Shown one piece after another: positions 46,705 to 63,402 of a stretch of 64,000 nucleotides of DNA. Source of the DNA: an uncultured Methanospirillum sp. (GTDB lineage Archaea; Halobacteriota; Methanomicrobia; Methanomicrobiales; Methanospirillaceae); assembly GCF_963668475.1 (NCBI RefSeq), contig NZ_OY764544.1, forward strand, positions 744,001 to 808,000. Reading direction: 5' to 3'. Both the position numbers and the translations under genes were made by a program. The notes below the pieces were generated by a model. It did not search any database, had not been told where the DNA came from, and saw only the letters and a program-made list of their open reading frames with translations. The first letter of the stretch is position 1; the number at the start of each line of letters is the position of its first letter.

Positions 46705-47451
46705 TCAATTTTCCTGGGTCACACCGAGTTTTCGGTCATCTGGCGTATTTCTATTTGAGGCCACGCTCTCTTCAAGTGCCTCCCTGATTACCTCTCCATA
46801 CGCAGGCAGTTTATTAGGATCAATAAACATCCGAAATGGAGCCCTGATACTCCACGGTTGCTCAGCTCCTTTCCGCATCCCCACATAATGATTATTCAAA
46901 AATAACCTGATCTCCGTCTTCCCATCTTTAATCAGGACAACCTGCCTGATATCCAGAAATGGAGCAAACAGTCTTCCGAGGATAGCTCCCCGGACAAGAA
47001 GTTCATACAGAGGCTTTCCAACTTTAATTGATTCCCGAATTCTTCGGTGGATAGATACCAGGTATCTGAAGTAAACTCTCCCCCGGATTCCTCCTCTGAC
47101 TGATGACGTTACATCAAACCTCCGCTTCCTGATAACCTTTCCGATAATTGATTGACGAGCAATCGAATACGAATCAGGACTTCGGTTATTATCACCAGCA
47201 GTCTGAACCTGGTCTCTCTGGATTGCAATCACCCGATGGATAATATACCTATGTCCCCCAGGTTCAGGATAGACGATCACATCCCCACGCTGTATATGAG
47301 TAAAACGGTCAAATATTACCCAATCACCATCGATGAAGGTTGGGTACATACTCATCCCCAGATATACGATCTCATCTCCGTTGATCTCTGGCAGACCATT
47401 CTGATAATATCCGACATTGAACTGGGTGATTTGGGGTGGATTGTATTTCAT
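46705..47451 (-). CDS. soluble signal peptidase-like protein (S24/S26 superfamily)
   Basis: A 248-residue protein with the S26 catalytic core but no membrane helix. The nucleophile Ser is in YLGMSMYPTFIDGD. The archaeal/eukaryotic-type His is in YIIHRVIAIQRD, followed by GDNN, as in SEC11-type enzymes. A C-terminal half of about 130 residues, basic and without a recognised family, replaces the usual anchor. It lies at the border of the peptide island and is read toward the ATP synthase. By position and lack of an export anchor it could be the protease that trims leader peptides; this is inference. A GTGAG site precedes the ATG. Confidence 0.72.
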   Translation of the reverse strand: MKYNPPQITQFNVGYYQNGLPEINGDEIVYLGMSMYPTFIDGDWVIFDRFTHIQRGDVIVYPEPGGHRYIIHRVIAIQRDQVQTAGDNNRSPDSYSIARQSIIGKVIRKRRFDVTSSVRGGIRGRVYFRYLVSIHRRIRESIKVGKPLYELLVRGAILGRLFAPFLDIRQVVLIKDGKTEIRLFLNNHYVGMRKGAEQPWSIRAPFRMFIDPNKLPAYGEVIREALEESVASNRNTPDDRKLGVTQEN

Positions 47452-47624
47452 CGTTTCTCACTTTATGCATGAAGACCGGATGAGGAGGGGATGAGAATTT
47501 CCCAGATGGAATCCGGCAGAATAATGGAAGCAGAAATCAGTACACTACGCTCTCTTCCCGATTTTAATGTGTTTTGATTACTAATAAATTAATTATTATT
47601 GGTCTCGGTAATGGGTTACTGTTG

Positions 47625-48285
47625 TTATAAGAAGATCTCCTGCTCAATCACATCCCAGAATCTGCCGATCAGCGTAGCACTGAGGAGATAGACGGGATCT
47701 CCCTGACCAGAGAACATGCATTCCCAAAACTGATGGTTCTCATCTCGTCTGATGTTCCTTATCCATGAAGCAAAACTGGTTCCAGGTCGCCTGACTGAAC
47801 AAATTGGTCATACAGATTGCTGCCTGCGATTGAGGAAATGATTCTATGGTATCCTCATCAGCCTGTTTGAGAATGCAGATCGTTTTCAGTGGATACGCGA
47901 GGGGCGGATTCCAAAAAAGTCCTTCTGCTCCGACTGCGATTTTACTTGCGGTTGGCAGCACCGATACAAGATATCCTCCGGAGCCATCAGGAATGGCAAG
48001 CCAATTCTCATCACCGAGAGCTGACCAGGGTGGAGGAACCCGCCTGACTGATGTTTATTTTCCTCTTCCGCTTGAAGCAACTAACAGAACTGCCTACCCA
48101 TCGCGGACCAGGGTTGCAGCATGAAGAAGAAGGCAAATCTCACAAAGAAGAATGATATTACTAAAAGCATCAGCAATTTTACCCCAAATGAGAGGTGTGT
48201 AGTATTATCTATAGGTATATCAGGAATTCCGATCTCAATCACTTTTATTACTGATTAAAAGCTGTTTTCCCGGACACACTGGCCG
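47625..48285 (-). pseudogene. degenerate copy of scmC
   Basis: Clear nucleotide similarity to the intact scmC at 50778-51434. The longest open piece (47740-47961) reads LPTASKIAVGAEGLFWN and ESFPQSQAAICMTN, nearly as in the intact protein. Single-base losses near 47692 (GACGGGATCTCC against GACCGGGATCTCC) and near 47738 break the frame. The P-loop region is also damaged. About the first 75 residues are missing because the copy is joined to an scmF fragment at a shared ACACACTG. Confidence 0.85.
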
Positions 48286-48386
48286 ATACAGACATTATTC
48301 CCAAGGCACCGGAAAAAGATCTATTTCAGATCCTCGGACAGATACTATCAGATCTGTTTTTATTGCATCGGCCTTTTCTCAGATAA
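48280..48386 (-). pseudogene. fragment of scmF fused to the scmC remnant
   Basis: About 105 bases match the 3' part of scmF (51777-51885), covering the last SPASM cysteines (VCIGQC region). The join to the scmC remnant is at ACACACTG, a sequence present in both intact genes, so a deletion between short direct repeats removed about 340 bases. Confidence 0.8.
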
Positions 48387-48471
48387 ATTCGGTGGTGTCG
48401 TAAAGGCTGGAGATCCGGGAGTGTGAGATTTGGAGAGTAACCGGTTATGTCACTGTTCACAGTAGAAGAGT

Positions 48472-48864
48472 CTACGAGAAACTCCCCACGTCGTTATTAC
48501 CGTTTACACAATAATTCGGAGTTGGACCATCGGTGCAATCAAAAGATAGGGTACCAGTTACTCCATTGCCACACATCGCATTTTGTCCAGACACAGTATC
48601 CCCAACAAAACATGTTCTTCCAGTTGCATTCGAGCCAGGCCAACACATACTGCCTCTATCATTTGGGAGTTGTCCAACATTACATGCGGTTGATGCTGAT
48701 TCGCCCCCTATGCATGAAGAATTTACCCCGTTTCCGCCATCGCATGCAGAAAATGAAAATTCAAGGCCACTGGTACAATCTTTAGATAATGCTTCGTCAC
48801 CAAATCCGGACATTCCTTGAATTGACAGATCAACAATCGCTGGTTTGATATATTTTTTTTTCAC
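48472..48864 (-). CDS. candidate precursor peptide P1 (Cys/Gly-rich)
   Basis: A 130-residue protein. The leader reads MKKKYIKPAIVDLSIQGMSG, the shared K-Y-KP-DLSI pattern, ending FGDEAL rather than TGIGA. The core has nine Cys spaced about 8-14 residues apart, mostly followed by Gly within three residues, and is rich in Ser, Asn and Thr. It ends VGSFS. There is no hydrophobic signal sequence. It is the most divergent member and sits alone next to the scmC/scmF remnants. It is probably a substrate of the radical SAM operon 2 kb to the right; this is inference. Confidence 0.75.
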   Translation of the reverse strand: MKKKYIKPAIVDLSIQGMSGFGDEALSKDCTSGLEFSFSACDGGNGVNSSCIGGESASTACNVGQLPNDRGSMCWPGSNATGRTCFVGDTVSGQNAMCGNGVTGTLSFDCTDGPTPNYCVNGNNDVGSFS

Positions 48865-49130
48865 AACAATAATCTCCCACGAAAGATTGCTCTGAAATGG
48901 TACAGAGAACCATTCGCAGATTGTGTCTTCATATATTTCTTCTTCTCGGGTTAAAATTTAGGGGATTCTGCGTGTTGCAATATTATTTCCTTGCTTATGT
49001 ATCTATCGGACTACCAGAGCAATCTCATTATGGAGATATAATGCCGAAAATTGATCCTCTGTGTGACAGGAATGTATGCCTGAATAAAGTGATATATGTG
49101 TCCTTTTCTTCCAGATGGTAACGAATGAGG
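48865..49130. other. intergenic region between precursors P1 and P2
   Basis: AT-rich sequence upstream of P1 with no recognised gene; presumably holds the P1 promoter. The remaining bases up to 49674 are described separately (palindrome and repeat unit). Confidence 0.3.
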
Positions 49131-49162
49131 TTGCCCAGTGAGATTCTTCTCACTGGACAACA
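49131..49162. repeat. near-perfect palindrome, likely remnant of an element end
   Basis: GTTGCCCAGTGAGA and TCTCACTGGACAAC form a 14-base inverted repeat with one mismatch and a 4-base loop. The sequence matches the ends of the MITE-like element at 58909-59009, so it may be an internally deleted relative. Confidence 0.5.
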
Positions 49163-49164
49163 TC

Positions 49165-50215
49165 AACACCAATCTCTGTATCAATTCGGCAATTATAAAA
49201 TCCATCTCTCCAGATAGTATGAAAGAATTCGAACATGACTGCTGATACCATCAAGCGGTGAACACAAATTGACTCAGTACACATCACAGTTATGTTTCTT
49301 CTGGTCGTTGCATTCCTGCATAGTACCCACACCAGATTATTACCTCAGTACCCGGTATCACACCGTGATCCGTAAGAGAGTCGTTTCTCAACTCTCAAAA
49401 CCTGAATAGGAAAGATTCTCATTTGAGATGGGAAATCAGTACCCGGGGGCTGTCCGCCCTCTCGATTATCCTTCTCGCTTGGGGCCTTTTTCTATCGAAA
49501 CGGGTCTGGAATGAAACCTTCCCAAAAAAGGAATTTTAATCATTATGAGCGGCACCGTCTCTGTCCTGGTCGGATTATCCTTCCGGGAAAACGAGCGGGG
49601 AAGACATTGGTACAGGCATGAAGACGGGAGAGATGACCCCTTACCTAATGAACAATAATTGAGATGAGTTACAGATGGGAAAGAAACAGTACATTGCACC
49701 AAAAATTATCGATCTCTCGATTGAGAGAATAACCGGGGTCGGGGCAGGAAATTGCCTTACAGGGGGACAATTTACTACCTCTTATTGTCATCATGGTCAT
49801 GGTACAACCGGCAAATGTGAGTATGGAAATGGTGCTTCAGCAGGCTGTACCTCTGGAGACCTCCCCTATCAGTCGGGAGTATTATGTAAGGTTGGGGGAG
49901 GAGCGGGAACAATCTGTGATGATGGGGGATCTGCCAGTGGGGCATTTGGAAAGTGTTCCAATGGAAGTTCTGCGACTGGGTACTGTCTCTGGACCGGGTC
50001 TGCTGCTCTTTCACCAAGCGTCCTTTGCACTTCTGGAGACAGTCAACTTTCCCTGGATAGTTCATAATCTCTCATGGGTCACCCCCCCATTTTTGACTGC
50101 AGCATACCGACCGTCTTTTTTTCTGAACAATCCTGCATCGATTCAACATTTGTTTAGGACCCCCCTTTTTGTGACATTCATTGACAAGCCGAGAAAGTAA
50201 TCCAGTTCACCGATT
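49165..50215 (+). repeat. precursor repeat unit, plus-strand type, copy 1
   Basis: About 1.05 kb containing P2 plus about 500 bases of upstream and 150 bases of downstream sequence, shared with units at 59025-60090 and 61255-62305. The upstream part carries no intact gene; a short hydrophobic frame beginning MFLLVVAFLH is present in all three but has no common end. Confidence 0.65.
49675..50067 (+). CDS. candidate precursor peptide P2 (Cys/Gly-rich)
   Basis: A 130-residue protein. The leader is MGKKQYIAPKIIDLSIERIT followed by GVGAGN. The core has nine Cys with GNGASAGC and GGSASGAFGKC style repeats and ends SLDSS. It lies in a plus-strand repeat unit and shares leader and flanks with P8 and P9. 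GAGATGAG lies before the start codon at 49675. No scmD copy accompanies it, so it would need carriers supplied in trans. Confidence 0.78.
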   Translation: MGKKQYIAPKIIDLSIERITGVGAGNCLTGGQFTTSYCHHGHGTTGKCEYGNGASAGCTSGDLPYQSGVLCKVGGGAGTICDDGGSASGAFGKCSNGSSATGYCLWTGSAALSPSVLCTSGDSQLSLDSS

Positions 50216-50267
50216 TTTCTTTTTTTCATGCATCAATTAACATTACGCGGTTCTTTAAGAAAAATAA

Positions 50268-50470
50268 GTAGGCATTCAGTGAAGTGAAGGAACACGTTAC
50301 TGGTGATTGTATGTTAAATCGTCCATTTCTTCTGTTCCTGCCCCCCGAGGTGTATGTGCGTCCGGAAACATAACAGAGAAGGATCCTGATGAGTCAGTTC
50401 CCAAAGGTTATGGAGGTCACAGGTTTTCCTCCTCTCCCGATTCCTCCGATACCTTTTTTACTTGATGCGG
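50268..50470 (+). repeat. degenerate downstream repeat, copy 1
   Basis: About 190 bases, starting ATTCAGTGAAGTGAAG, resemble 63403-63590 after P10. A 66-residue frame at 50389-50589 begins here but is not conserved in the second copy, so it is not called as a gene. The remaining bases 50471-50777 show nothing recognisable. Confidence 0.5.
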
Positions 50471-50777
50471 GAACTCTCTCCTACCGGATGACACAGGACC
50501 AGAGTATGACGGATATTGTCCCTGAATTACGGAGAGAGGGTACACTACTACCGACCCATTTTTATTACTTTTTTGTCAATGACACATGAGTAATCGCTTT
50601 TATCAAACATTTTCATTTTACAATATGCACAGGCATATTCATCAACTCATTCTGAATCGTTTCCAAAGATTTTAGCGAAAAATATGTGCAAAATTGATGC
50701 AGACTCAAAGCGAGAAAACCAGTCTGGAGACCATCATTTCAGAGATTCGTATTACAATTAAGATACAGGTATCCCTT

Positions 50778-51650
50778 TTATCTGAATAACTTCTGTTCAA
50801 TCACTTCCCAGAACCTGCCTGTCAGCGTAGCACTGAGGAGATAGACCGGGATCTCCTTGACCAGAGAGCATGCATTCCCAAAACTGAGGGTTCTCATCTC
50901 GTTCTGAAGTTCCTTATCCATGAGGCAGAACTGATTCCAGGTCGCCTGACTGAACGAATTGGTCATACAGACTGCTGCCTGCGATTGAGGAAATGATTCT
51001 ATGGTATCCTCATCAGCCTGTTTGAGAATGCAGATCGCTTTCAGTGGATATGCGAGGGTCGGATTCCAAAAAAGTCCCTCTTCTCCGGCTGCGATTTTAC
51101 TTGCGGTTGGCAGCACCGATACAAGATATCCTCCGGAGCTATCAGGAATGACAAGACAATTCTCATCGCCGGGGGCGGACCAGGGTGGAGGAACCCGCCG
51201 GGCTGAAGTGGATTTTCCTCCTCCGCTGGATGCGGCCAACAGAACCGCCTGCCCATCGTGGACAAGGGTTGCAGCATGAAGAAGAAGGCAATGCTCAGAA
51301 AGAAGAATGGCACTAATACCAACCATCAGTAATTTTATCCCAGATGAAAGATGTTCGGGGTAATCTGCGGCAGAATTCGGGATTCCAATCTCAATCAGTT
51401 TTTGTTTCTGATTGAGAGCGATCTTCCCATACACACTGCCAAATACCTGCCAGTCTTCAGAACGGATGGGATCTTCAGGTAAGAGCGGAGCAACCGATAT
51501 CAGTCCGGAGTTGAGAATCTCTCCCGAGGAGAGGGTGAGGAGAGGAGCAATGGCTTCCAGCCACCAGAACCGGTCAGGATCAGCAGTGATCGTCCAGTGA
51601 TGTTCCCGTGGCAATGAAAGGGTATACATGAAAGATGGTCTTTTTTCCAA
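50778..51650 (-). CDS. scmC: HprK-like P-loop protein, SynChlorMet cassette ScmC-like
   Basis: A 290-residue protein. A Walker A motif AASSGGGKST lies at about 139-148 and follows LLLHAATLV, the usual HPr kinase/phosphorylase-like layout in peptide modification loci. A likely C-terminal domain includes ESFPQSQAAVCMTNSF. No catalytic role is established; HprK-like proteins in RiPP clusters may phosphorylate or bind precursors. It starts with a TTG five bases after the scmF stop; an ATG 21 bases further in is possible. It is the last gene of the operon scmD-scmE-scmF-scmC. A decayed second copy lies at 47625-48285. Confidence 0.75.
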   Translation of the reverse strand: MEKRPSFMYTLSLPREHHWTITADPDRFWWLEAIAPLLTLSSGEILNSGLISVAPLLPEDPIRSEDWQVFGSVYGKIALNQKQKLIEIGIPNSAADYPEHLSSGIKLLMVGISAILLSEHCLLLHAATLVHDGQAVLLAASSGGGKSTSARRVPPPWSAPGDENCLVIPDSSGGYLVSVLPTASKIAAGEEGLFWNPTLAYPLKAICILKQADEDTIESFPQSQAAVCMTNSFSQATWNQFCLMDKELQNEMRTLSFGNACSLVKEIPVYLLSATLTGRFWEVIEQKLFR

Positions 51651-51654
51651 ACGA

Positions 51655-52758
51655 TCAGTGTACTTGTCCTTCAGCCAGCCTGGTCATCGGGAATACTCCG
51701 GCTTTCAGTGCATCTTCACAGAATTTATGGCCGGCCAGAAGATCCTTCTCTACATAGTAATTATTAGCAACACACTGGCCGATACAGACATTCTTCACCA
51801 GGCACCGGGAACAGATCCCTTTCAGATCCTTTGGAAGATGCTCACGGATCTCGTTTAATGCGTCTGCTTTCTCCCAGATATCTTTGATCTGATCCCTGGA
51901 TGCATGACCGAAACAGAGTTCAGGCACACTGGTTCCGATACCACAGAGGGCATAGGTTCCGTCTGAGAGAACTCCGAGTATGGAGAAGATACCGCATCTT
52001 CCACAGTTCCCCTGTGGACCATAGAGCGATGAGAGCGATCTGAATGCGAATGGCAGATTCGTCATCAACTGAATCTTCAGTTCCTTTTGGAGCTCGTTCT
52101 GCACCCACCGGGAGAGTTCAATCTGTTCCTGCACCGTGACCGTCGCTCCTTCAGCTTCCATCGCTTCGCCTCGTGCAGTCGGGGTGACAAAATTGTATTT
52201 AACAGAGCCGGCTCCCATCTCCTGTGCATATTTTGCCAAATCTGCCATTTCACCTTTGTTTCTGCCGGCAACAGCCATGATCACCTGAGGATGGATTCCG
52301 GTCTCTACGAGGGTTTTCACTCCCTGGCTTACCCGATCAAAGGATCCCTTCACTCCCCGCATCCATTCATGAGATTCACGGTTCCCGTCGATACTAATGG
52401 AAATAAACGAACCAGGACAGGATTTTATCAGGTCTGCGATATGTGGAGTAACTGCTACTCCGTTTGACTCGATGGTCAGATGGAGATGCTGATCCCTGAT
52501 GAACCGGAGCATCGGGATGATGTCAGGGTGAATGAGGGGTTCTCCTCCGGTGAGTTTCACTCCCGAGAGGCCGATTTCTTTTGCTTCAGTTACGATCTTT
52601 TTGAAGAGATCGAACGGGAGAGCTTTCTGAGACCGGTCAGAGTGTTCAAAGGTCGGTGCGATCCAGCAGTGACGGCAGGCCATGTTGCAGTCACCGGTGA
52701 GATAAAAGTACAACATCCCAAGAGGAGGGACGGTTTTTGTTATTGTCTCTTCAGTCAT
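51655..52758 (-). CDS. scmF: radical SAM/SPASM peptide maturase, ScmF-like
   Basis: A 367-residue iron-sulfur enzyme. The SAM-binding cluster motif CNMACRHC is at residues 24-31, following PPLGMLYFYLTGD. LTGGEPLIHPDI is the GGE motif. The C-terminal SPASM region has about eight Cys (GNCGRCGIF, YALCG, LCFG, ICSRCLVKNVC, GQC, FC) for two auxiliary clusters. Members of this class form thioether, C-C or other links on ribosomal peptides. With scmE it makes a two-enzyme maturase. The SynChlorMet name is recalled from the N-terminal motif and gene order, not searched. There are 114 bases between the scmE stop and its ATG. Confidence 0.85.
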   Translation of the reverse strand: MTEETITKTVPPLGMLYFYLTGDCNMACRHCWIAPTFEHSDRSQKALPFDLFKKIVTEAKEIGLSGVKLTGGEPLIHPDIIPMLRFIRDQHLHLTIESNGVAVTPHIADLIKSCPGSFISISIDGNRESHEWMRGVKGSFDRVSQGVKTLVETGIHPQVIMAVAGRNKGEMADLAKYAQEMGAGSVKYNFVTPTARGEAMEAEGATVTVQEQIELSRWVQNELQKELKIQLMTNLPFAFRSLSSLYGPQGNCGRCGIFSILGVLSDGTYALCGIGTSVPELCFGHASRDQIKDIWEKADALNEIREHLPKDLKGICSRCLVKNVCIGQCVANNYYVEKDLLAGHKFCEDALKAGVFPMTRLAEGQVH

Positions 52759-52872
52759 AGGAATCGGGTATCATCGGCATTCAAAGGTCGAAATAACTCA
52801 TAACGATGAAAATTATTATTTTATGTAATAATTTTGCAATTTTTTATATGATGGGGGGATTTTGAAGAGAGA

Positions 52873-53982
52873 TCACGGAATACTGACGATTCGTCCTCCC
52901 TCTGCAAGGAACTTCTTTAGACATCCGCCCGGACTGGGGACATAGACATCACCGGTTCGTGAATACCCGTCTGCAGGACAGTTTCCGGTGCAGGCCATCT
53001 GGTACCCGCAATCTGCACAATCCGGAAATGTCGAAAGAGGGATGGTATACCGTTGCCGGAGCCGGTTGAATTCTGGATGGTTCTGCCAGACATCGAGGAG
53101 TTTATGCTGATTGATCTTCCCAAGTTCAATCTGGGAAAGCATCCCGCAGGGAACATAGGTCCCGTCCGGTCTGACTGCCATCTTACTCCACATGCATCCG
53201 CAACCAGTAAGGTACCCCCGGCCAGGGATGGGTCGGTCCTCAATCCGTGCCTGCTCCATCTCCTGGTAGTTTCTTCCTTGTGCAAGTGGTCCGGCAGCTG
53301 CGGTAATCCGGTTGTTGTACCGTTTCGCAAGCTGGAGGATCTTCTCCATTGCAATACAGGTCTCTGCCGGAGTAAGGCTCACTTCTTCCTCGTTTTCCCG
53401 GGCAAGTCCCTGATAACTGGCACTATTGGTTGAAATGGATCCCATTCCGATCTCATCCAGGAGCAGATGAGCAATGTTTTCGAGATCATCCAGGTTGTAC
53501 CGGTGAATAGTAACCCGTGAGGTTACCTGCACTCCGGCATCCTGCAGGGTTTTAATTCCCCGGATTGCCCCATCAAATGCCCCGGTACCCCGAAGACGAT
53601 CATGCACGGCTGCACAGGATCCATCAACCGATACCTGGACATAGTTACATCGTCCGGTCGATGCGATGAACGTTGCAATATCAGGGGTGATCAGACCACC
53701 ATTGGAGAGGACAGCAAACCGCATCTTGTTTGCAACAATCCCCTCAATCATCTCCCTCAGATCTTCCTTGATAAACGGTTCTCCTCCGCCGATGGTGATC
53801 TCCATGATCCCCACATTCCCGCATTCTTCAAAGAAAGTTCTCCACCCGGATGCAGGGATTTCTCCCCCGGTATCTGCCGGACTGGTCCGGTGAAAGCAGT
53901 ACTTGCATTTCAGGTTACACCGGGAGGTGATATCGATATCAATGGACTTCGGAGTTTTCATGACCCTGCGGTTTTCGGTCAT
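52873..53982 (-). CDS. scmE: radical SAM/SPASM peptide maturase, ScmE-like
   Basis: A 369-residue iron-sulfur enzyme. CNLKCKYC lies at residues 22-29 after KSIDIDITSR; the GGGEP motif is ITIGGGEPFI. SPASM Cys residues occur in GCGCMWS, PCGM, FPDCADCGYQMACTGNCP and GGCLKKF. GGAGGATT precedes the ATG at 53982 and the scmD stop is nine bases upstream. Truncated copies of its first 30 codons follow each of three other scmD genes. Its substrate is most likely the Cys-rich family encoded beside it; the type of link is not predictable. Confidence 0.87.
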   Translation of the reverse strand: MTENRRVMKTPKSIDIDITSRCNLKCKYCFHRTSPADTGGEIPASGWRTFFEECGNVGIMEITIGGGEPFIKEDLREMIEGIVANKMRFAVLSNGGLITPDIATFIASTGRCNYVQVSVDGSCAAVHDRLRGTGAFDGAIRGIKTLQDAGVQVTSRVTIHRYNLDDLENIAHLLLDEIGMGSISTNSASYQGLARENEEEVSLTPAETCIAMEKILQLAKRYNNRITAAAGPLAQGRNYQEMEQARIEDRPIPGRGYLTGCGCMWSKMAVRPDGTYVPCGMLSQIELGKINQHKLLDVWQNHPEFNRLRQRYTIPLSTFPDCADCGYQMACTGNCPADGYSRTGDVYVPSPGGCLKKFLAEGGRIVSIP

Positions 53983-53991
53983 AATCCTCCA

Positions 53992-54270
53992 TCATCCGAC
54001 CTGGGCGTATCCAAGCCGTACAATCTGATCACAGAAATTTTTGATATCTTCAGTCAGATCGTCAGGGATATTCTCGTATTCATCCTGAATCGCTGCAATG
54101 ATTCCATTCAGATCTTTGCCTTCGCTCAGGGATTTCCAAATGGTAACCCCGGTAGGTGTCAGGCCGACGGCCTTTCCGGTATCAGGGTTGAACAGGAGTG
54201 CCCAGTCATCAAACTCTTCGCGGAGTGAGATCTGAGATCCTGGTGTTGGGATTGAAATCTGGTTAGTCAT
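53992..54270 (-). CDS. scmD: PqqD-like peptide carrier, ScmD-like, copy 1
   Basis: A 92-residue PqqD-fold protein (winged-helix RRE) that delivers precursor leaders to radical SAM enzymes. Typical residues are seen: ISLREEFDDWALLFNPDTGK, VGLTPTGVTIWKSL, and a terminal FCDQIVRLGYAQVG. The ATG at 54270 overlaps the end of the frameshifted precursor P3. This copy feeds directly into intact scmE, so it is the one in the complete operon. Three almost identical copies lie upstream. Confidence 0.88.
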   Translation of the reverse strand: MTNQISIPTPGSQISLREEFDDWALLFNPDTGKAVGLTPTGVTIWKSLSEGKDLNGIIAAIQDEYENIPDDLTEDIKNFCDQIVRLGYAQVG

Positions 54271-54879: not shown

Positions 54880-54990
54880 TCATGCCCGAATTGTCTGGTG
54901 AAAGCAGTACTTGAATTTCAGGTTGCACCGGGAGGTGATATCGATATCAATGGACTTTGGGGTCTTCATGACCCTGCGGTTCTCGGTCAT
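54880..54990 (-). pseudogene. 5' stub of scmE, copy A
   Basis: A 36-codon fragment after scmD2 matching the first 31 codons of scmE, then stopping in unrelated sequence. Its cluster motif reads CNLKFKYC, so one ligand Cys is lost. It marks the end of a repeat unit. Confidence 0.82.
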
Positions 54991-54999
54991 GATCTTGTA

Positions 55000-55685: not shown

Positions 55686-55727
55686 GTTAACTCTGATTAT
55701 AAACCTATATTTAGGACCGCTTTCAAA

Positions 55728-55743
55728 ATCAGTCAGAACTGAT
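55728..55743. promoter_or_regulatory. palindrome upstream of P4
   Basis: ATCAGT-CAGA-ACTGAT, 43-58 bases before the P4 ATG at 55685, just upstream of the TATA box. Confidence 0.55.
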
Positions 55744-55913
55744 ATACTTTAAGTAATAATTATCCGAATAAGGAGGAATAATAATATCGATTTGATTTTC
55801 GATATAGTAGATATGATAATCGCGTATGATTACTTATGGGGTTTCTATTTACAGATCTCCCATCTTCGTAAATACATTATGCATTATCTGATTCGACCTC
55901 CATGTACCAAAAA

Positions 55914-56024
55914 TCATGCCCGAATTGTCTGGTGAAAGCAGTACTTGAATTTCAGGTTGCACCGGGAGGTGATATCGATATCAATGGACTTTGGGGTCTT
56001 CATGACCCTGCGGTTCTCGGTCAT
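55914..56024 (-). pseudogene. 5' stub of scmE, copy B
   Basis: Same 36-codon stub and same CNLKFKYC change as copy A, after scmD3. Being identical to copy A, it arose by recent duplication of the whole unit. Confidence 0.82.
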
Positions 56025-56033
56025 GATCTTGTA

Positions 56034-56312
56034 TTATCCGGCCTGGGCGTATCCGAGCCGTACAATCTGATCACAGAAATTTTTGATATCTTCAGTCAGA
56101 TCATCAGGGAGGTTCTCGTATTCATCCTGAATCGCTGCAATGATTCCATTCAGATCTTTGCCTTCGCTCAGGGATTTCCAGATGGTAACCCCGGTCGGGG
56201 TCAGGCCAACGGCCTTTCCGGTATCAGGGTTAAAGAGGAGTGCCCAGTCATCAAACTCTTCGCGGAGTGAGATCTGAGATTCTGGTGTTGGGATTGAAAT
56301 CTGGTTAGTCAT
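56034..56312 (-). CDS. scmD: PqqD-like peptide carrier, ScmD-like, copy 3
   Basis: Ninety-two residues, identical to copy 2 except Glu for Gly in IPTPESQ. An adjacent ATG at 56315 is also possible. Its start overlaps the P5 stop. Near identity over about 400 bases with copy 2 contrasts with the divergent precursors P4 and P5. Confidence 0.87.
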   Translation of the reverse strand: MTNQISIPTPESQISLREEFDDWALLFNPDTGKAVGLTPTGVTIWKSLSEGKDLNGIIAAIQDEYENLPDDLTEDIKNFCDQIVRLGYAQAG

Positions 56313-56722
56313 CATGAAAAATGTTGGAGTTGTCCATAGCCACTACGGCATAAAAGAGAATTTGTATTACCATAAGGTTCACACATAGGTTTTTGTTGGT
56401 CAAATCCGGCGTAACATATTGAGGGTGTACCCCCATCACCACAGAAATTCCGGTTCGCAGAGTTCCCAATCATATTACAAACTCCCTGTTTATTTGAAAG
56501 CCCAGGAGTACACATGGTGCCGGTATAGTTGGGCGTCCAACCTTCATCGCATGCACTCGTTACAGTATCACCAATATTACAACTGGTTTGTGCTCCTAAT
56601 CCGGCATTACACCCGGAACTACTAACATGTAATCCATGATTGCATTCTTTCGCCCCGATCCCGGTAGCGCCTTCTATACTCAGATCGATCACAATGGGCT
56701 TTCCATATGATTTTTTTGCCAT
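56312..56722 (-). CDS. candidate precursor peptide P5 (Cys/Gly-rich)
   Basis: A 136-residue protein. The leader is MAKKSYGKPIVIDLSIEGAT then GIGAKEC. The core has ten Cys in the same order but with mostly different residues from P4 (GLGAQTSC, TVTSAC, PNYTGTMC, NKQGVC, GGTPSIC) and ends QHFS. Its upstream palindrome is at 56765-56780. It is coupled to scmD3 by overlapping stop and start. Confidence 0.85.
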   Translation of the reverse strand: MAKKSYGKPIVIDLSIEGATGIGAKECNHGLHVSSSGCNAGLGAQTSCNIGDTVTSACDEGWTPNYTGTMCTPGLSNKQGVCNMIGNSANRNFCGDGGTPSICYAGFDQQKPMCEPYGNTNSLLCRSGYGQLQHFS

Positions 56723-56764
56723 GTTAACCCTGATTATAAACTTATATTAAGGACCTTTTTCAAG

Positions 56765-56780
56765 ATCAGTCAGAACTGAT
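56765..56780. promoter_or_regulatory. palindrome upstream of P5
   Basis: ATCAGT-CAGA-ACTGAT, 43-58 bases before the P5 ATG, the third exact copy. A decayed version (ATCAATCTAAACGGAT) precedes P6 at about 57804-57819. Confidence 0.55.
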
Positions 56781-56948
56781 ATACTCAAGTTATAGTTATT
56801 TAGGCACGTAGGAATAACGATATCGATTTGATTTTCGATACCATAGTTTGATAATCGGGTATGATTACTCATGGGGTTCCGATTTGCAGATCTCCCATCC
56901 TCGGAAATAGATTATGCATTATCTGATTCGACCTCCAGGTTCCAAAAA

Positions 56949-57059
56949 TCATGCCCGATTTGTCAGGTGAAAGCAGTAATTGCATTTCAGGTTGCACCGG
57001 AAGGTGATATCGAAATCAATGGACTTTGGGGGTTTCATGACCCTGCGGTTTTAGGTCAT
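56949..57059 (-). pseudogene. 5' stub of scmE, copy C
   Basis: The most decayed stub: a stop follows two codons after the first ATG and several codons differ, but the ITSRC-type segment is still recognisable. It is therefore the oldest unit of the three. Confidence 0.7.
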
Positions 57060-57068
57060 GATCTTGGA

Positions 57069-57347
57069 TTATCCAGCCTGGGCGTATCCGAGCCGTACAA
57101 TCTGATCACAGAAATTTTTGACATCTTCAGTCAGATCTTCAGGGAGGTTCTCGTATTCATCCTGAATCGTTGCAATGATTCCATTCAGATCTTTGCCTTC
57201 ATTCAGAGATTTCCAAATGGTAACCCCGGTCGGGGTCAGGCCGACGGCCTTTCCGGTATCAGGGTTGAACAGGAGTGCCCAGTCATCAAACTCTTCGCGG
57301 AGTGAGATCTGAGATCCTGGTGTTGGGATTGAAATCTGGTTAGTCAT
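57069..57347 (-). CDS. scmD: PqqD-like peptide carrier, ScmD-like, copy 4
   Basis: Ninety-two residues, with small changes from the others (LNEGKDLNGIIATIQ, NLPEDLTEDVK), in keeping with an older duplication. The ATG at 57347 shares its first base with the P6 stop (TGATG). Confidence 0.86.
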   Translation of the reverse strand: MTNQISIPTPGSQISLREEFDDWALLFNPDTGKAVGLTPTGVTIWKSLNEGKDLNGIIATIQDEYENLPEDLTEDVKNFCDQIVRLGYAQAG

Positions 57348-57760
57348 CAAGAAAAACTTCCGAGTTGTACATTGCCAGAAGTGCAAAAATGAGAATCTGT
57401 ATCACCAGTAGTACACGAACTGGTGGTTCGCCCTACTCCGTTAGTATAACATACTGAGGGTGAACCCCCATTATTATGGCAGATACTATGGATCGCAGAG
57501 CCCCCATCTGTACAAGTTCCCTGTAGATTTGATTCCCCATGCCAACACAAGCCGCTGTTATTGTTGGGAAAATTACCAACAGAACATGCACCTGTTGCAC
57601 CATATCCAGTAGGATTACAACTGGTTTGTGCTCCAATCCCCGCATTACACGCAGAATATTTAACAGTTCCTCCATCATCGCAATTTGTCGCCCCGATCCC
57701 GGTAGCGCCTTCTATACTCAGATCGATCACAAGTGGCTTTCCATACGTTTTCTTTACCAT
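57347..57760 (-). CDS. candidate precursor peptide P6 (Cys/Gly-rich)
   Basis: A 137-residue protein. The ATG at 57760 (MVKKTYGKPLVIDLSIEGAT) is preferred over a frame that starts 16 codons upstream. The core has ten Cys (GIGAQTSC, GATGAC, NNNSGLC, NLQGTC, GGSPSVC, GRTTSSC) and ends GSFS. It is the first gene of the four-unit tandem array. Confidence 0.85.
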   Translation of the reverse strand: MVKKTYGKPLVIDLSIEGATGIGATNCDDGGTVKYSACNAGIGAQTSCNPTGYGATGACSVGNFPNNNSGLCWHGESNLQGTCTDGGSAIHSICHNNGGSPSVCYTNGVGRTTSSCTTGDTDSHFCTSGNVQLGSFS

Positions 57761-58349
57761 AATAAACTCTAAATAAACATATAATGAAGGGACCGGTTTC
57801 AAAATCAATCTAAACGGATTTATTCTAAGTTATAATTATTTAGGCACGTAGAAATAATGATATCTATTTGATTTTCGATATAGTAGTTATGATAATCGGG
57901 TATGATTACGAATGGATTCCGATTGGAAAAGTATCGGATCTAAATTTGTAGTGTTCCCTTCTTACACGAATCGCAAAAGCGGTGAAAATTGCATGTTCCG
58001 TCCCTGGAAGATGGGGAAGGAATAATCTCTCCTTGTTATTTGACGATCTGATGCCAGCGGAACTGTGGGCACGGATATTATTCGTGTTATTACCAGATAT
58101 GGATCTTTTGATTCTGAAAGGTAACTGCAGAACTCATATCTCTATTGCCACCTGAAATAACACATTTAGCTGTATTGACCGCCTGAAGAGGTACAATAAC
58201 AATGTACGTACCAAGGAAAGGAAATGTGACAGAAATCGATTTCATTCTCGCTGGACAGGAAAGGGAGTAATAGAAAAGCGGATAGAAAAAAAGGTACCGC
58301 TTGGACCCTCATTGAATCAATCGTATTAATCTGATTCACAATGCCTTTG
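57761..58349. other. region between P6 and P7 without a clear gene
   Basis: Bases 57761-57930 repeat the AT-rich upstream block of the minus-strand units, more diverged. Bases 57950-58155 contain an open stretch on the plus strand of about 65 codons (LLFDDLMPAELWARILFVLL) without a start or known match; it may be a decayed gene. Nothing else is seen. Confidence 0.35.
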
Positions 58350-58787
58350 TCAGCTTGATGATATGAAGGGCTGCTGAGTGCTACCATTATTGTTACAGAA
58401 CCCGGCACCAGAACCATCAATACATGTGCCATTAGTTTGAGAATATTTTGCAGAGGAACCTGATCCACAGTAGAGGGATGGAGAATTTCCTGAAAAACAT
58501 TCACTAAAAGCCCCAGATGCATTAGCACCATTAACCCAACATGCTCCTGCTGCATCTGATCCAGTAGCATTACACACTACTGCATTGTAATTAGGACTCG
58601 TTCCATCATTACATGATGATGATGCCCATCCTCCGACGTGGCATGTATTCACATACCCACTCCCAGGACCGCAGTCTGAATCGCTAAAACTGGGTCCAGT
58701 ATCGCATAAAGAACCACCAATTCCAGTCACACCCTCTATACTTAAATCGATCACTGTTGGGAGGACATACACCTTTTTTTTAACCAT
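58350..58787 (-). CDS. candidate precursor peptide P7 (Cys/Gly-rich)
   Basis: A 145-residue protein. The ATG at 58787 starts MVKKKVYVLPTVIDLSIEGV, TGIGG. The core has ten Cys with GSGYVNTC, GWASSSC, SPNYNAVVC, AAGAC, SASGAFSEC-like spacing and ends FISSS. It has no scmD partner and lies alone, in reverse to P8. Confidence 0.8.
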   Translation of the reverse strand: MVKKKVYVLPTVIDLSIEGVTGIGGSLCDTGPSFSDSDCGPGSGYVNTCHVGGWASSSCNDGTSPNYNAVVCNATGSDAAGACWVNGANASGAFSECFSGNSPSLYCGSGSSAKYSQTNGTCIDGSGAGFCNNNGSTQQPFISSS

Positions 58788-58908
58788 GATTTTCTTCCAT
58801 TCGCTTGGAAATTGCACCGAACAAACTGCTTTACTTGTGAGAAAATTATTATAGATATACTTTTTTCATAGATGGGTAAATTTCTTTCTTTTTTATCCTG
58901 ATATTTCA

Positions 58909-59009
58909 TAGAGGTTGTCCAGTGTAGAGAATCGAAGGCCGAATCATCTTCCGTTTTGGCTAATTTCAAGAAAGATCTATAAGAGAAATCCTTCATTGGA
59001 CAACCTCTC
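58909..59009. mobile_element. MITE-like element with inverted ends
   Basis: About 100 bases bounded by AGAGGTTGTCCAGTG and CATTGGACAACCTCTCT, an inverted repeat of about 15 bases. A start (MKDFSYRSFLKLAKTEDD) reads inward on the minus strand from one end, like the N-terminus of an IS5-type transposase. It is probably an internally deleted insertion sequence. The remaining bases 58788-58908 hold only the P7 upstream region. Confidence 0.6.
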
Positions 59010-59024
59010 TTCAATCCCCGTATC

Positions 59025-60090
59025 TAACCGGTAATTTTAAAATCCGTTCCACCATATATTTTGAAAGAATCAACATGACTGCTGATAGCATCAAGAGCGT
59101 GAACACAAATTGAATCGGTGCATATCGCAGTTATGTTTCTCCTAGTCGTCGCATTCCTGCATATTAGCGACAGTAGATAACCTCCCCACCGGTACCCGGT
59201 ATCTCACCGTGATCCTTGAGAGAGCAGTTCCGCAACTCTCAAAATCTGTACGGAAAAGAATCTCATTTGAGATGGAAAACCAACACCCGGGGGCTGTTCA
59301 CCCTCTCGATCATCCTTCTCGCTGGGAGCAGCCTTTCTATCGTATCGGATCTAGAATGGAACCCTCCCTGATAAAAGAAATTTTTATCATTATGAACAGA
59401 ACTTTCTCTGTCCTGGTCGGATTTTCCTTCCGGGAAAACGAGTGAGGAAGGTAGTGGTACAGGCACGAAGACAGGAGAGACGACTCCTTAAAGCAATGAT
59501 AAATAATTGAGATGACTGACAGATGGGAAAAAAACAATACATTGCACCAAAAATTATCGATCTCTCTCTAGAGACAATAACTGGGGTCGGGGCGGGAAAT
59601 TGTCTGGATGGGACAGATTTTTATACCTCTTATTGTCATCCTCAAGGGGCTGGTGCATCCAGTGGATGCAATCAAGGGTATGGTGCTTCAGCAAGTTGTG
59701 CAGGTGGAGTGTTACCCCGTCAAACGGGAGTATATTGTAATCAAGGGGGTACAGCGAGACAATGTTGGAATGGGGATTCTGCCAGTCGTGCAGATGGAGA
59801 GTGTAGGAGTGGAAGTACTGCTACTGGGGTGTGTACGAACAATGGAGGTTCCCCGAACCCGTCGAATTTTTGTCTAAGTGGACCAGATCATGCGAATTGC
59901 TACTCAGGAGGCTATCAGGTTCCCCACGGGAGTTCATAATCTCTCATAGTTCCCCCTATTTCCGACTGTAGTATACCACCCTCCTTTTTGCATGAACAAT
60001 CCTGGATCGATTCAACATTTGTTTAGGATCCCCACTTGGGGGCATTCATTGACGAGTAGTAAAAGCATTCCGGTTCACTATTTTTTTACA
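59025..60090 (+). repeat. precursor repeat unit, plus-strand type, copy 2
   Basis: Contains P8 with about 500 bases upstream and 150 downstream that closely match the units at 49165 and 61255. It begins just after the MITE-like element. Confidence 0.65.
59523..59939 (+). CDS. candidate precursor peptide P8 (Cys/Gly-rich)
   Basis: A 138-residue protein. Leader MGKKQYIAPKIIDLSLETIT, GVGAGN. The core has ten Cys (GASSGC, GASASC, RQTGVYC, TARQC, SRADGEC, TATGVC, NPSNFC, HANC) and ends QVPHGSS, the same C-terminus as P9. Start preceded by GAGATGA. No adjacent carrier gene. Confidence 0.8.
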   Translation: MGKKQYIAPKIIDLSLETITGVGAGNCLDGTDFYTSYCHPQGAGASSGCNQGYGASASCAGGVLPRQTGVYCNQGGTARQCWNGDSASRADGECRSGSTATGVCTNNGGSPNPSNFCLSGPDHANCYSGGYQVPHGSS

Positions 60091-60211
60091 TTTTCAAGCA
60101 TCAACCCAGATTCCATGATCCTTTAAGAAAAAATAAATTTTTCATACTCTTGCCGAGGAAATCCAACCATTTTCTGAAACATTTCCTCTAAATTAAAGAA
60201 ATATTATTTAC

Positions 60212-60490
60212 TACTTTTCCTTCAATCCTCAACGACCACTCCCGTACTCTTCGGACAGAAAGAATACCCAATCCATCATCTGTTTTTGAGTCGGTTTACC
60301 GGTCTGACTTGGTACAGTTTCATTAGACTCTTCCAGGTTTTTTCGGAACTTGTACTCGGTCACTGTGTATATATACGGGTAGATAACCATGATCATCGCT
60401 AAGGCCTGGATGCGGGAAAAATTTTTTAAGAAGACTTCAGATACTCGGAATGTTTAATCTTTTAGGAATCTGAATCCTTTTCGACCTGGT
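60212..60490 (-). pseudogene. C-terminal remnant of an IS1634-family transposase
   Basis: Translation of the minus strand, with stops, gives GRKGFRFLKD, AMIMVIYPYIYTVTEYKFRK and NETVPSQTGKPTQK, a pattern typical of the end of IS1634-type transposases. A TAA directly after FLKD breaks it. It is the partner of the N-terminal remnant at 62305-62715, in the same orientation. Confidence 0.7.
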
Positions 60491-61254
60491 ACTGACCCTT
60501 ATCGTATGACAAAGCAGATTCAAGATCCAGATCCATATGTCATCGGTTAAGGAATAATGAAGATTACACCTCATTCGTCTATTAATCTCAAGCAGTTTCA
60601 AAAAATTCCATGTATAAATTCGTCTGGTATAAATACAACCCCCCCAGGTTCAGTCCACCTAATGTGAGTATAGAACATTTTTTGAGTGTTAAATTCGTGT
60701 AACACCGTACCTTAACCGATGGCATATGAATAAGTATCTCGCTATCGCTACAGATAATGGAGTGAAGGGGAGGGACTTTGTGCCCCGACTTTCCTTCTAT
60801 GTAGTTTTTCGGACGAGAATTAGACATAAACAGCGTCTAATGGATCACCAATCGTAATTACTGTAATGGCTCATTTCCAGAGTTAATTTGTCAAAAAATA
60901 AGTGAGGTAAAGGATAGAAGATATTCGAATCGCAAACGAGTGATCAAAGCTTCTCTGTTTAGGATTCGAGTATATACGTGGATGATATCCTATGCCTTAT
61001 GGCTGGTCAGAATTGAAGTAGCAGTCCGGGTCAATTTCGAAGCAGCAAATACAACAGATTCTGGTTACTTGCATGTACCACATTCTCCCATAGGATTCAC
61101 ACTATTCCATTACCAGAATTGCATGCTATAAGAGGAATATTTCGAACGATGAAATCGCGTCAGGCAATCCAAATTACCATTTCTTGGTGCACCAACACTT
61201 TTCTTACACTATCTGCCTGAAAAATCAAAACAACAACAATCCCCTTTCTTAACT
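60491..61254. other. decayed sequence, probably the middle of the IS1634 element
   Basis: No intact gene. A weak minus-strand match near 61138-61215 (QADSVRKVLV then VIWIA) resembles the ADS...WI stretch of IS1634 transposases. The spacing is right for the missing central part. An 79-residue open frame at 60588-60827 has no recognised relation. Confidence 0.35.
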
Positions 61255-62305
61255 TCAACAATCCCCGTATCTAACCGGTAATGTTAAAATCCACCCCTCC
61301 ATATACTTTGAAAGGATTTGAACATGACTGCTGATAGCATCAAGAGCGTGAACTCAAAGTGAATCGGTGCATATCACAGTTATGTTTCTCCTGGTCGTCG
61401 CATTCCTGCATATTACCCACACCAGATAACCACCTCACTGGTACCCGGTATCTCACCATGATCCTTGAGAGAGCAGTTCCGCTACTCTCAAAACCTGAAC
61501 GGAAAAGATTCTCATCGAGATGGAAAACCGACACACGGGGGCTGTTCGCCCTCCCGATCATCCTTCTCGCTGGGAGCAGCCTTTTCTACCTTATCGGGTC
61601 AGGAATGGAACCGTCTCTATCCTGGTCGGATTCTCCTTCGGAAAAACGAGTGGGGAGGTATTGGTACAGTCACGAAGAGAGGAGAGACGACTCCTTAAAG
61701 CAATGAAAAATAATTGAGATGAGTAACAGATGGGAAAGAAACAGTATATTACACCAAAAATTATCGATCTCTCTCTGGAGGCAATTACCGGGGTCGGGGC
61801 GAGAAGTTGTCAGGCTGGGGATAATGTAGGTTACTCTTCTTGTACTGATGGCCTAGGTGCAACCAGCGGATGCACTGATGGGGCTTTTGTTTCAGCAGGC
61901 TGTACAGGGGGAGACATCCCCCATCAATCGGGAGGATATTGTGGTGGTGGGAGTGCAGCTGGAACAATATGTGATCCGCAAGGGGGATCTGCCAGTGGGG
62001 CATATGGAAAGTGTTATTTTGGAAATGCTGCTACTGGGATGTGTTTTTCCCATGGAGCTTCCGGTTCCTATTCCTTTTGTGATACGGGACCAACTGAAGC
62101 GTCTTATTGCTCTAATGGACCCACTCAGGTTCCCCACGGGAGTTCATAATCACTTATGGTTCTCCCTCATTTCCGACTGTAGCAGACCTAACCTCCTTTT
62201 TGCATGAACAATCCTGGATCGATTCAACATGGGTTTAGGTCTTCCCTTTTGGGGGCATTCATTGACGAGTAGTGAAAGCAATCAGGTTCACCGGTTTTTC
62301 AGTAT
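61255..62305 (+). repeat. precursor repeat unit, plus-strand type, copy 3
   Basis: About 1.05 kb with P9, nearly the same flanks as the 59025 unit. It lies between the two IS1634 halves. The right border falls within the transposase frame (SENN then EKPV), where the unit sequence continues. Confidence 0.65.
61730..62149 (+). CDS. candidate precursor peptide P9 (Cys/Gly-rich)
   Basis: A 139-residue protein. Leader MGKKQYITPKIIDLSLEAIT, GVGARS. The core has ten Cys (GLGATSGC, FVSAGC, HQSGGYC, AAGTIC, SGAYGKC, AATGMC, SYSFC, EASYC) and ends QVPHGSS. Flanks match P8 closely while the core differs. Confidence 0.82.
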   Translation: MGKKQYITPKIIDLSLEAITGVGARSCQAGDNVGYSSCTDGLGATSGCTDGAFVSAGCTGGDIPHQSGGYCGGGSAAGTICDPQGGSASGAYGKCYFGNAATGMCFSHGASGSYSFCDTGPTEASYCSNGPTQVPHGSS

Positions 62306-62715
62306 TGTTTTCAGAATCATAATCGCTGTAGACACTGAAATTAGTTGTATCATTATTTACATGATTGATAGCAAATTGATCTCTTTTCATACAGTCGGAT
62401 ACCATATGATTGAACAATTCGGTAGGCTCAAAGACGGCAATAGCATCAAGAGTCCGGCCCAGGACTTCATCATTCAACTGCTCTGATGTGATATCTTAAT
62501 GAAGAGACGTTTGAGTGAAATATCAGCGAAAAATGCAGGAAGAGATCCAGGCGATGTTCAATATAACCAAGCCCGTTGATAGTCATAGCTTTGACAATAT
62601 CACCATGTGGAAGAGTGTATGGACCATTTTAGGGGATCAAGCGATCGATTATGGTACCGATTTGTAACTCATCGTAACTCCCGGCTACTAAACCAAGTTG
62701 CCCATTGTCTTATCG
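62305..62715 (-). pseudogene. N-terminal remnant of an IS1634-family transposase
   Basis: The minus strand gives, with frame breaks, LGLVAGSYDELQIGTIIDRL, KAMTINGLGYIEHRL, LFPAFFADISLKRLF, LNDEVLGRTLDAIAVFEPTE and NDTTNFSVYSDYDSE, the usual opening of IS1634-type transposases. It stops at about codon 135, at the edge of the P9 repeat unit. The region 62716-62913 holds nothing recognised. Confidence 0.75.
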
Positions 62716-62913
62716 GAGTTCTGAATAAAGAGAACATCGAAATCCGGGGACAATAAATAGAGAACAACATTATAAAGTCTATAGTTAAGCTTTTCTTAAT
62801 TTTTTTCTGAACATCTACGGATGATTGGTTTATAATAGATCAGATTATTGTTTCACAGCCCTTAGGTCCTGGTTGCATAATTTTTTCAATAGCAATATTG
62901 AATATAATTAGTA

Positions 62914-63372
62914 ATGTCGATGCAGAAAAAGAAATATCTACAACCAATGATCATAGATTTGAGCATCGAGGCGGTTACTGGAATCGGAGCATCAGAATTT
63001 TATTGTGGTAACGGAGACAGTGCAGCAACAGCCTGTAGTTCTACCGGCAACAGTCCAGGGACCCCTCCTGCTCTCACCTGTTATTCCAATGGAAATGGGG
63101 CAACGGGAACTAATAGTAACTCTTGTCAAAGGGGAGTTGGTGTAAGCGGAGGCTGTTTAGATGGAGGCTTACCTCATACCGTTACTGGTTACTGTAACTA
63201 CGGGGGTTCTGCCACCGGAGCAAACAGTACCTGTGCCGCAGGAAATACTGCTTTGGGGCAATGTCTAACAGGAGACAGTGCATCAGCAAAAGACACTGCA
63301 GCATGCGGGGGAGGAAGCACCCCCTCATACTGTGTGGCTGGGAATAACCAGGCGTTCTCTTGGTCTTCCTGA
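62914..63372 (+). CDS. candidate precursor peptide P10 (Cys/Gly-rich)
   Basis: A 152-residue protein, the longest member. Leader MSMQKKKYLQPMIIDLSIEA, VTGIGAS. An ATG six bases further in is an equal start. The core has ten Cys with CGNGDSAATAC, GNGATGTNSNSC, GGSATGANSTC, GDSASAKDTAAC and ends FSWSS. It has no repeat flanks upstream and no adjacent carrier gene. Confidence 0.8.
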   Translation: MSMQKKKYLQPMIIDLSIEAVTGIGASEFYCGNGDSAATACSSTGNSPGTPPALTCYSNGNGATGTNSNSCQRGVGVSGGCLDGGLPHTVTGYCNYGGSATGANSTCAAGNTALGQCLTGDSASAKDTAACGGGSTPSYCVAGNNQAFSWSS

Positions 63373-63402
63373 TACCCAGGCAGTACAGAAAGAATCTGAG
63401 TT

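Follow-up and report, generated by a model that had tools for sequence, protein, structure and literature searches.

A SynChlorMet-type gene island with cysteine-repeat candidate precursors in a Methanospirillum genome

The gene island described here lies in a 64,000-nucleotide stretch of DNA (the window) from an uncultured Methanospirillum species, bases 744001-808000 of a 3.93 Mb single-contig genome. The assignment to Methanospirillum agrees with a protein encoded by G775, a genome placed in the same genus, which is identical to one named Methanospirillum lacunae (P0008). The island carries the enzymes of the SynChlorMet (SCM) cassette together with genes for a set of leader-plus-core proteins, and it has parts in common with several described peptide systems. 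In the pathway of the linear polyphosphorylated peptides (LPPs, 2026), a discrete recognition element (RRE) for ribosomally synthesised and post-translationally modified peptides (RiPPs) binds a YxxP leader, a SipW-like signal peptidase with Ser29, His68 and Asp93 cuts the leader only if the RRE is present, and a nucleoside triphosphate (NTP) transferase and an MsbA-like exporter complete the set, which also contains an HprK-like kinase; the LPPs are called restricted to Bacillota (PMC13381572). The HprK-like kinases of the paeninodin-type lasso peptides act on the C-terminal Ser (PMC9266682), and YxxP is the motif required by lasso RREs (PMC6784204). Among Cys-rich peptides, freyrasin with its six thioether bridges gives a multi-ring precedent (PMC8326336), and ranthipeptide and sactipeptide clusters are among the classes named in a 2025 survey of archaeal RiPPs (PMC12144867).

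No study on the SynChlorMet or ScmE/ScmF system was found among open-licence papers, subscription papers being outside this coverage. The NCBIfam collection holds a precursor model, TIGR04252 (SCM_precur_ScmA), thus the idea of a small precursor for the Scm cassette is already in the databases. From the gene content and the comparisons presented below it is very probable that the island encodes a multi-product RiPP pathway and that the Cys-repeat proteins with the YxxP leader are its precursors.

The Scm enzymes and the candidate precursors

A first-pass annotation of the window had placed a minus-strand operon scmD-scmE-scmF-scmC at 50778-54270, and both the gene order and the assignment of the three enzymes proved correct. 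ScmC (50778-51650), an HprK-like predicted kinase, and the two radical S-adenosylmethionine (SAM)/SPASM enzymes ScmF (51655-52758) and ScmE (52873-53982) reached 149.4, 451.4 and 491.3 bits with TIGR04249, TIGR04251 and TIGR04250, respectively, each exceeding the curated NCBIfam cut-off (125, 400 and 400 bits). The cut-off of ScmD, 100 bits, was reached by none of the four copies of this PqqD-like protein, the predicted leader binder (RRE), which are found on the same strand at 53992-54270 (79.1 bits with TIGR04248), 55000-55278 (78.0 bits), 56034-56312 (78.2 bits) and 57069-57347 (79.3 bits). They align to positions 4 or 5 to 82 of this model of 84 positions, and the single copy scanned with Pfam, the third, matched PqqD with an E value of 2.2e-12. 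Pfam Radical_SAM and SPASM domains are present in both ScmE and ScmF, with a CX3CX2C motif near the N terminus (residue 22 in ScmE, residue 24 in ScmF). ScmC matched HprK_rel_A at E 6.6e-6, under the cut-off of that model; its P-loop Lys146 as well as His125 and Asp162 were invariant across ten aligned homologs, and a sequence search for its PDB relatives returned chance-level matches only.

Ten leader-plus-core genes are present around the operon, the number proposed before, of which nine are intact and one is frameshifted. Precursors 1 (48472-48864), 3 (55275-55685), 4 (56312-56722), 5 (57347-57760) and 6 (58350-58787) are encoded on the minus strand, precursors 2 (49675-50067), 7 (59523-59939), 8 (61730-62149) and 9 (62914-63372) on the plus strand. 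In the frameshifted gene (minus strand, about 54263-54650, tandem unit 1) the leader frame ends after 33 codons and the core lies in a different frame. An eleventh precursor gene was located 1.5 kb beyond the end of the window. The nine intact proteins have 130-152 residues with 9 or 10 Cys each, and all of them end in Ser, as do 21 of the 21 protein-search matches, at least three of these being the window's own precursors. Their first 24 or so residues are near-constant (KKxYxxPxIIDLSIExxTGxGA). In 23 cores chosen for diversity, Gly stands at +3 or +4 of 134 of the 137 Cys residues, with an excess of Ala or Pro at +6, and the Cys residues most often lie 10 (36 cases), 11 (24), 13 (15) or 9 (13) positions apart; since the short cores were partly selected on CxxG, the enrichment of Gly at +3 is biased for the short precursors.

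The physical coupling of four precursor genes to the PqqD-like gene, claimed in the first-pass annotation, could be verified. Four precursor-scmD units, the frameshifted one included, form a tandem array that repeats every 1008-1035 bp. Wherever the unit is intact (three cases), there is an overlap of 1-4 nucleotides between the stop of the precursor gene and the start of scmD (4 for precursor 3 with scmD copy 2, 1 each for precursors 4 and 5 with copies 3 and 4). Each of the three extra units retains a short 5' fragment of scmE, whose frame is still open in two of them and has decayed in the third, and remnants of this kind (repeat family D1, minus strand) lie at 54880-54990 and 55914-56024. 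Since the extra units carry the scmE start, a tandem duplication which took in the precursor, scmD and the beginning of scmE is suggested. Duplicates of about 1 kb are also dispersed over the island (49170-50219, 59012-60033 and 61259-62300), each with a plus-strand precursor; their upstream non-coding part is conserved as well (families D6, D10, D11 and D15-D18), hence a common promoter of the three plus-strand precursors is likely.

That the precursor of the cassette was not known, as stated in the first-pass annotation, holds in part: TIGR04252 exists, and it matched neither the nine intact precursors of the window nor the eleventh at E<=10. Thus these proteins are not filed as ScmA. The same model matched a short Methanocella protein (P0185), which is named after it, at E 6.5e-18, and among the precursors of eight other cassettes it gave two weak matches (L036, E 0.0053; L039, E 0.025). 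L036 encodes a short precursor with three repeats at 13426-13626.

Multi-copy, repetitive sequences rich in Gly, Ser and Cys would also fit structural or adhesive proteins, for example of the sheath or envelope, that are secreted unmodified and merely lie near the Scm cassette; the Methanospirillum sheath is tough, and dithiothreitol and NaOH are needed to dissolve it (PMC6242892). However, the reported sheath protein of M. hungatei is, in the same paper, a different protein of 377 amino acids and 40.6 kDa which is not in an operon, and on this ground a sheath protein was rejected as the principal explanation. The leader carries the RRE-type YxxP motif and, by eye, charged residues, unlike a plain hydrophobic signal, and Scm enzymes have such peptides as neighbours in other archaea and a deltaproteobacterium as well (see below). 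Precursor 8, the only one modelled, received no predicted fold from AlphaFold2 (input of 23 sequences; mean predicted local distance difference test score, pLDDT, 35; predicted template modelling score, pTM, 0.19), which led to the rejection of a folded structural repeat and is weak evidence only against structural proteins in general. Taken together, we regard unmodified structural proteins as highly improbable.

Recurrence beside Scm enzymes and evolution of the cores

The cassette is more widespread than the few anaerobes to which it had been assigned: 2509 proteins matched ScmF at E<=1e-60, not all of them necessarily ScmF, and some of the proteins named ScmF among the 120 matches listed come from Desulfomonile, Saganbacteria, Omnitrophica and Victivallales. 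At a threshold of 1e-70, 10 of 392 genomes of the phylum were positive for ScmF. The 14 loci fetched with ScmF comprise ten archaeal ones (L033-L042, including a second cassette of the same genome, L040) and four short or partial contigs (L013-L016); genes were marked by BLAST with the proteins of the window. Three further loci whose matches to ScmF were weak (L017-L019, 23-31% identity) were judged not to hold ScmF and served as controls.

On reading the small open reading frames (ORFs), a Cys/Gly ORF with a YxxP leader was found in 12 of the 14 loci, namely in all ten archaeal ones, L013 and L016, and a fixed leader-plus-CxxG pattern was positive in 10 of the 14. In the deltaproteobacterial contig L016 the precursor sits between scmE and scmF. 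No leader-bearing Cys/Gly ORF was seen on reading the fragmentary contigs L014 and L015; the L015 genome, the second deltaproteobacterial one, encodes two long precursors on contigs other than L015, and their leaders closely resemble those of the window (RVIDLSLEAVTGIGA). The occurrence of leader-bearing Cys-repeat genes near other Scm cassettes had been predicted in the first-pass annotation, and it was borne out in a coverage which included Methanocella (P0185), with Syntrophobacter and Chlorobium genomes outside it. This recurrence supports the earlier proposal that the proteins are precursors of the cassette and form a multi-product family, for which we infer the modification itself. In the ten archaeal loci ScmD and ScmF were each present ten times, ScmE and ScmC nine times (ScmC was missing from L040), the ATP-binding cassette (ABC) exporter nine times (missing from L040) and the NTP transferase seven times; the S26-like protease was a separate gene in six and fused to ScmC in L041.

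The leader-plus-CxxG pattern in the island exceeds chance. It matched nine times within positions 46501-64000 of the window. The cassette loci (219 kb) gave 15 matches, of which one (L041 10234-10557) is antisense to ScmF and was not counted as a precursor. Control sequence (112,597 bases) had no match, cassette sequence shuffled by triplets (1.10 Mb) had four and reversed cassette sequence had one. A precursor model built without any L033-L042 sequence (A2) found, at E<=1e-3, 4 of the 392 genomes, all of them ScmF-bearing at 1e-70 and all with their matches at the cassette, and the best match outside these genomes had an E value of 0.059. The chance of three out of three other genomes falling among 9 of 391 is 8.5e-6. 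Another model (A3) found nine of the 392 genomes, eight with ScmF, while the ninth (G274) matched weakly, by its core alone (E 4.5e-4), in a frame of low complexity; since A3 contains the loci's own sequences it is circular, and the argument therefore rests on A2. Of 12 genomes of the genus, six have ScmE and three have A2 precursors, these three all being among the six; the numbers are too small for significance alone.

Divergent cassettes of the genus were also inspected. In L104 a different Cys-bearing YxxP ORF was found, and in L105, a 3.4-kb contig, no such precursor was seen. The L102 cassette (4261-10630) contains Cys-repeat peptides with double-Gly leaders, and one of its two ABC transporters has a C39 peptidase domain; from this one case the leader end and the protease type seem to change together. 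In genome G774 a precursor-1-like gene followed by an scmD copy (L103, 1785-2434) lies on a different contig from ScmE and ScmF.

Leaders and enzymes are conserved while most of the compared cores diversify. The ratio of nonsynonymous to synonymous substitution rates (dN/dS) was 1.79 for the cores of the tandem precursors (bootstrap 1.17-2.86) and 0.32 for their leaders; the corresponding values of the three plus-strand precursors were 1.31 (0.90-1.92) and 0.13. Slightly different core values (1.76 and 1.30) were obtained from a nine-sequence alignment, and only core intervals and point values were used, as the bootstrap interval of the tandem leaders is unreliable, some resamples being without synonymous change. 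The ScmD copies gave 0.15-0.21. A second species possesses a syntenic island (L101) in the same order: protease, a broken scmC, a decayed precursor 1 and two precursors on the plus strand (best matched by precursors 2 and 7), then ScmC-F-E-D with tandem units, one of them broken, precursor 6, a precursor-8-like gene, the exporter and the NTP transferase. Between the two species ScmE, ScmF, ScmC and the exporter are 91-97% identical with dN/dS of 0.05-0.15 (ScmE 0.08, ScmF 0.05), and four of the five compared precursor cores are 58-72% identical with dN/dS of 0.83-1.99.

These values bear on the possibility that the cassette converts the peptide to a small redox cofactor, in the manner of PqqE and PqqD for pyrroloquinoline quinone, the many gene copies being due to dosage or decay. 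The resemblance of ScmE, ScmF and ScmD to PqqE and PqqD speaks for it. However, the precursor of a cofactor should not diversify, and here the core dN/dS exceeds 1 in most comparisons with the leaders conserved; neither do 9-10 regularly spaced Cys residues per precursor and an export gene set fit such a product. We consider a cofactor very unlikely.

Protease, exporter and surroundings of the island

The candidate leader peptidase is a signal-peptidase-like (S24/S26) protease encoded at 46705-47451 on the minus strand (NCBIfam sigpep_I_arch 70.5 bits, cut-off 51.85; Pfam S26/S24). Its Ser34, His72, Asp87 and Asp93 were invariant across ten aligned homologs, and homologs were found in other Scm loci too. 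In L041 (11825-13438) and L104 (5791-7347) the HprK-like ScmC and the S26-like protease are fused as a single protein; the L104 fusion matches the HPr kinase domain at E 1.7e-4, under the curated score. A similarly long ScmC of L042 (9325-10893) had no Pfam match at 0.001. The genes of the ABC exporter and the NTP transferase lie just past the window.

An scmC pseudogene (47737-48132, minus strand) gives a partial TIGR04249 match with three internal stops and contains a 300-nucleotide repeat of scmC at 93% identity; the broken scmC of the second species is split into two ORFs (L101 2463-3041). Precursor 9 is separated from the rest of the island by a transposase-like, presumably IS66-like ORF (63731-64000 and L021 1211-1852). 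Genes of A/V-type ATP synthase subunits, recognised by eye, adjoin the island at 42670-46430. No RNA element was matched in an Rfam scan of 46000-64000. Among the four proteins scanned with PADLOC none gave a match, and a defence system was rejected on this basis.

Proposed pathway and comparison with known systems

The genes and their order, the common leader, the Cys repeat, the recurrence beside Scm enzymes and the contrast in selection between leaders or enzymes and most cores are direct observations. Leader binding, ring formation, phosphorylation, cutting and export are inferred steps, which would be arranged as follows. ScmD would bind the YxxPxI part of the leader and present the precursor, and the overlap of precursor and scmD genes would cause the two proteins to be made together. 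The 9-10 Cys residues of the core would be the sites at which ScmE and ScmF act, the likeliest outcome being thioether rings inside the CxxGxxA units, which are about ten residues long. ScmC may phosphorylate a core Ser, plausibly the C-terminal one; the S26 protease would cut near the G-x-G ahead of the first Cys, the ABC exporter just outside the window would export the product, and the nearby NTP transferase could act as a further tailoring enzyme.

For ScmE and ScmF thioether rings are the favoured predicted chemistry, since their solved (PDB) relatives include PqqE, SkfB and cytosylglucuronate decarboxylase as well as 5wgg and 5v1q, which we take to be CteB and SuiB. It is quite possible that the peptides are precursors as proposed and that ScmE and ScmF perform another reaction, such as carbon-carbon linking, epimerisation or oxidation, the Cys residues binding metal or forming disulfides; this concerns the ScmE/ScmF step only and is compatible with the rest of the pathway. 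The two enzymes match SPASM enzymes of several chemistries, including PqqE, the heme-synthesis enzymes AhbD and NirJ and, in the case of ScmF, cytosylglucuronate decarboxylase, and sequence alone does not fix the reaction. On the other hand, Trp, Tyr and Phe are scarce in the cores and most Cys residues follow one another at 9-13 residues, which suits sulfur chemistry, and SkfB is called a sactisynthase in the title of PMC6231123.

Several observations weigh against the interpretation of the island as a RiPP pathway with these precursors, or against single steps of it. The kinase of the LPP pathway phosphorylates Ser3 of the core and not the last residue (PMC13381572), and the short precursors of other cassettes are generally without a C-terminal Ser. 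Among solved proteins ScmF is best matched by cytosylglucuronate decarboxylase, an enzyme that does not modify peptides. At E<=1e-3 the A2 model misses six of the nine other ScmF-bearing genomes, so that the link there rests on reading ORFs beside the cassette, and it matches just three of the six ScmE-bearing genomes of the genus. The precursor calls are weak in L040 and L042, neither of which is matched by the fixed pattern; ScmE is missing from L042, and the second cassette of the own genome (L040, G000:C1:1374026-1376307) has only ScmD, ScmE and ScmF nearby. This cassette, where a weak candidate short precursor was noticed at L040 10702-10941, may borrow its other parts from the island of the window. 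No ScmF was found at 1e-70 in 377 genomes around that of L016, a scan which also missed L016's own ScmF, cut by the contig end, and so is not evidence of absence. Genome G384 of the genus has a divergent ScmE and was scored ScmF-negative in the 392-genome scan, thus the negatives of that scan may include divergent cassettes. Between the two species the protease (dN/dS 0.29) and the NTP transferase (0.28) are less conserved than the other enzymes, precursor 6 has a core that is 96% identical (dN/dS 0.14) with a leader at just 79%, and some of the precursor pairs may be paralogs of uncertain orthology. In one L101 leader His replaces the Tyr of YxxP.

With these points taken into account, the assignment of the Cys-repeat proteins as precursors of a multi-product RiPP pathway is retained. 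It would provide a concrete likely substrate set for the Scm radical SAM enzymes and a recognition rule, a YxxPx[ILV] leader, usually GxG and then CxxGxxA repeats, which holds in archaea and deltaproteobacteria. It would link the SCM cassette, as yet uncharacterised, with the recently demonstrated LPP pathway in a single scheme open to test, with a methanogen case in which many precursors with fast-changing cores are served by one slowly changing enzyme set, and it could be useful for finding archaeal natural products and for studying peptide roles. More tentatively, and with doubt, the island may represent a new RiPP class, radical-SAM-laddered peptides, in which every ten-residue CxxGxxA unit would hold a thioether ring (about ten rings at most) and a phosphorylated Ser would cap the C terminus; a relative of signal peptidases would release the peptides for export. 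In Methanospirillum the class would have grown to about ten products, with cores under selection to change, as for weapons or recognition signals between methanogens and their partners.

All five gene types of the LPP pathway, the discrete RRE, the HprK-like kinase, the signal peptidase, the NTP transferase and the MsbA-like exporter, are present in the island, the last two just past the window and both also on the island of the second species, and the YxxP leader, the variable cores and the Ser, His and Asp residues of the protease are likewise common to the two (PMC13381572). However, the island adds two radical SAM/SPASM enzymes and Cys-repeat cores, and in the accessible text of the LPP paper neither radical SAM, rSAM nor SPASM is mentioned. 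Of the LPP leader YxxPxVLxHQxIxFETxxS, as given there, only YxxPx[ILV] is common with the island leader, which does not fit the LPP pattern as a whole, and the Scm loci occur in archaea and deltaproteobacteria, the LPPs in Bacillota.

The paeninodin-type lasso systems resemble the island in the HprK-like kinase, the nucleotidyltransferase, the YxxP/WxxP leader and the C-terminal Ser (PMC9266682). They differ in the B2-type leader peptidase, of which the island genome has none (no PF13471 match, compared with matches in 3 of 14 control genomes, one above the cut-off), and no lasso-type ring is expected; a lasso peptide was rejected since PF13471 is not matched in the genome. With SCIFF (six cysteines in forty-five residues) peptides or ranthipeptides and with sactipeptides the island has Cys-rich precursors beside SPASM radical SAM enzymes in common (PMC8326336). 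The island, known here from its genes, differs from them by a separate PqqD-like protein, two radical SAM enzymes, and the HprK and S26 partners.

The island agrees with the SCM cassette (TIGR04248-TIGR04252) in ScmC, ScmE and ScmF above their cut-offs and in the ScmD-E-F-C order. It differs in its precursors, which have 130-152 residues and 9-10 Cys compared with the 49 positions of the ScmA model and are present in ten copies, and in its four copies of scmD. The protease, the exporter and the NTP transferase were found beside most of the Scm cassettes inspected here. Thus what is new in the island is, on strong indications, a form of the SCM pathway with long cores and multiple precursors, its accessory genes being common to the LPPs.

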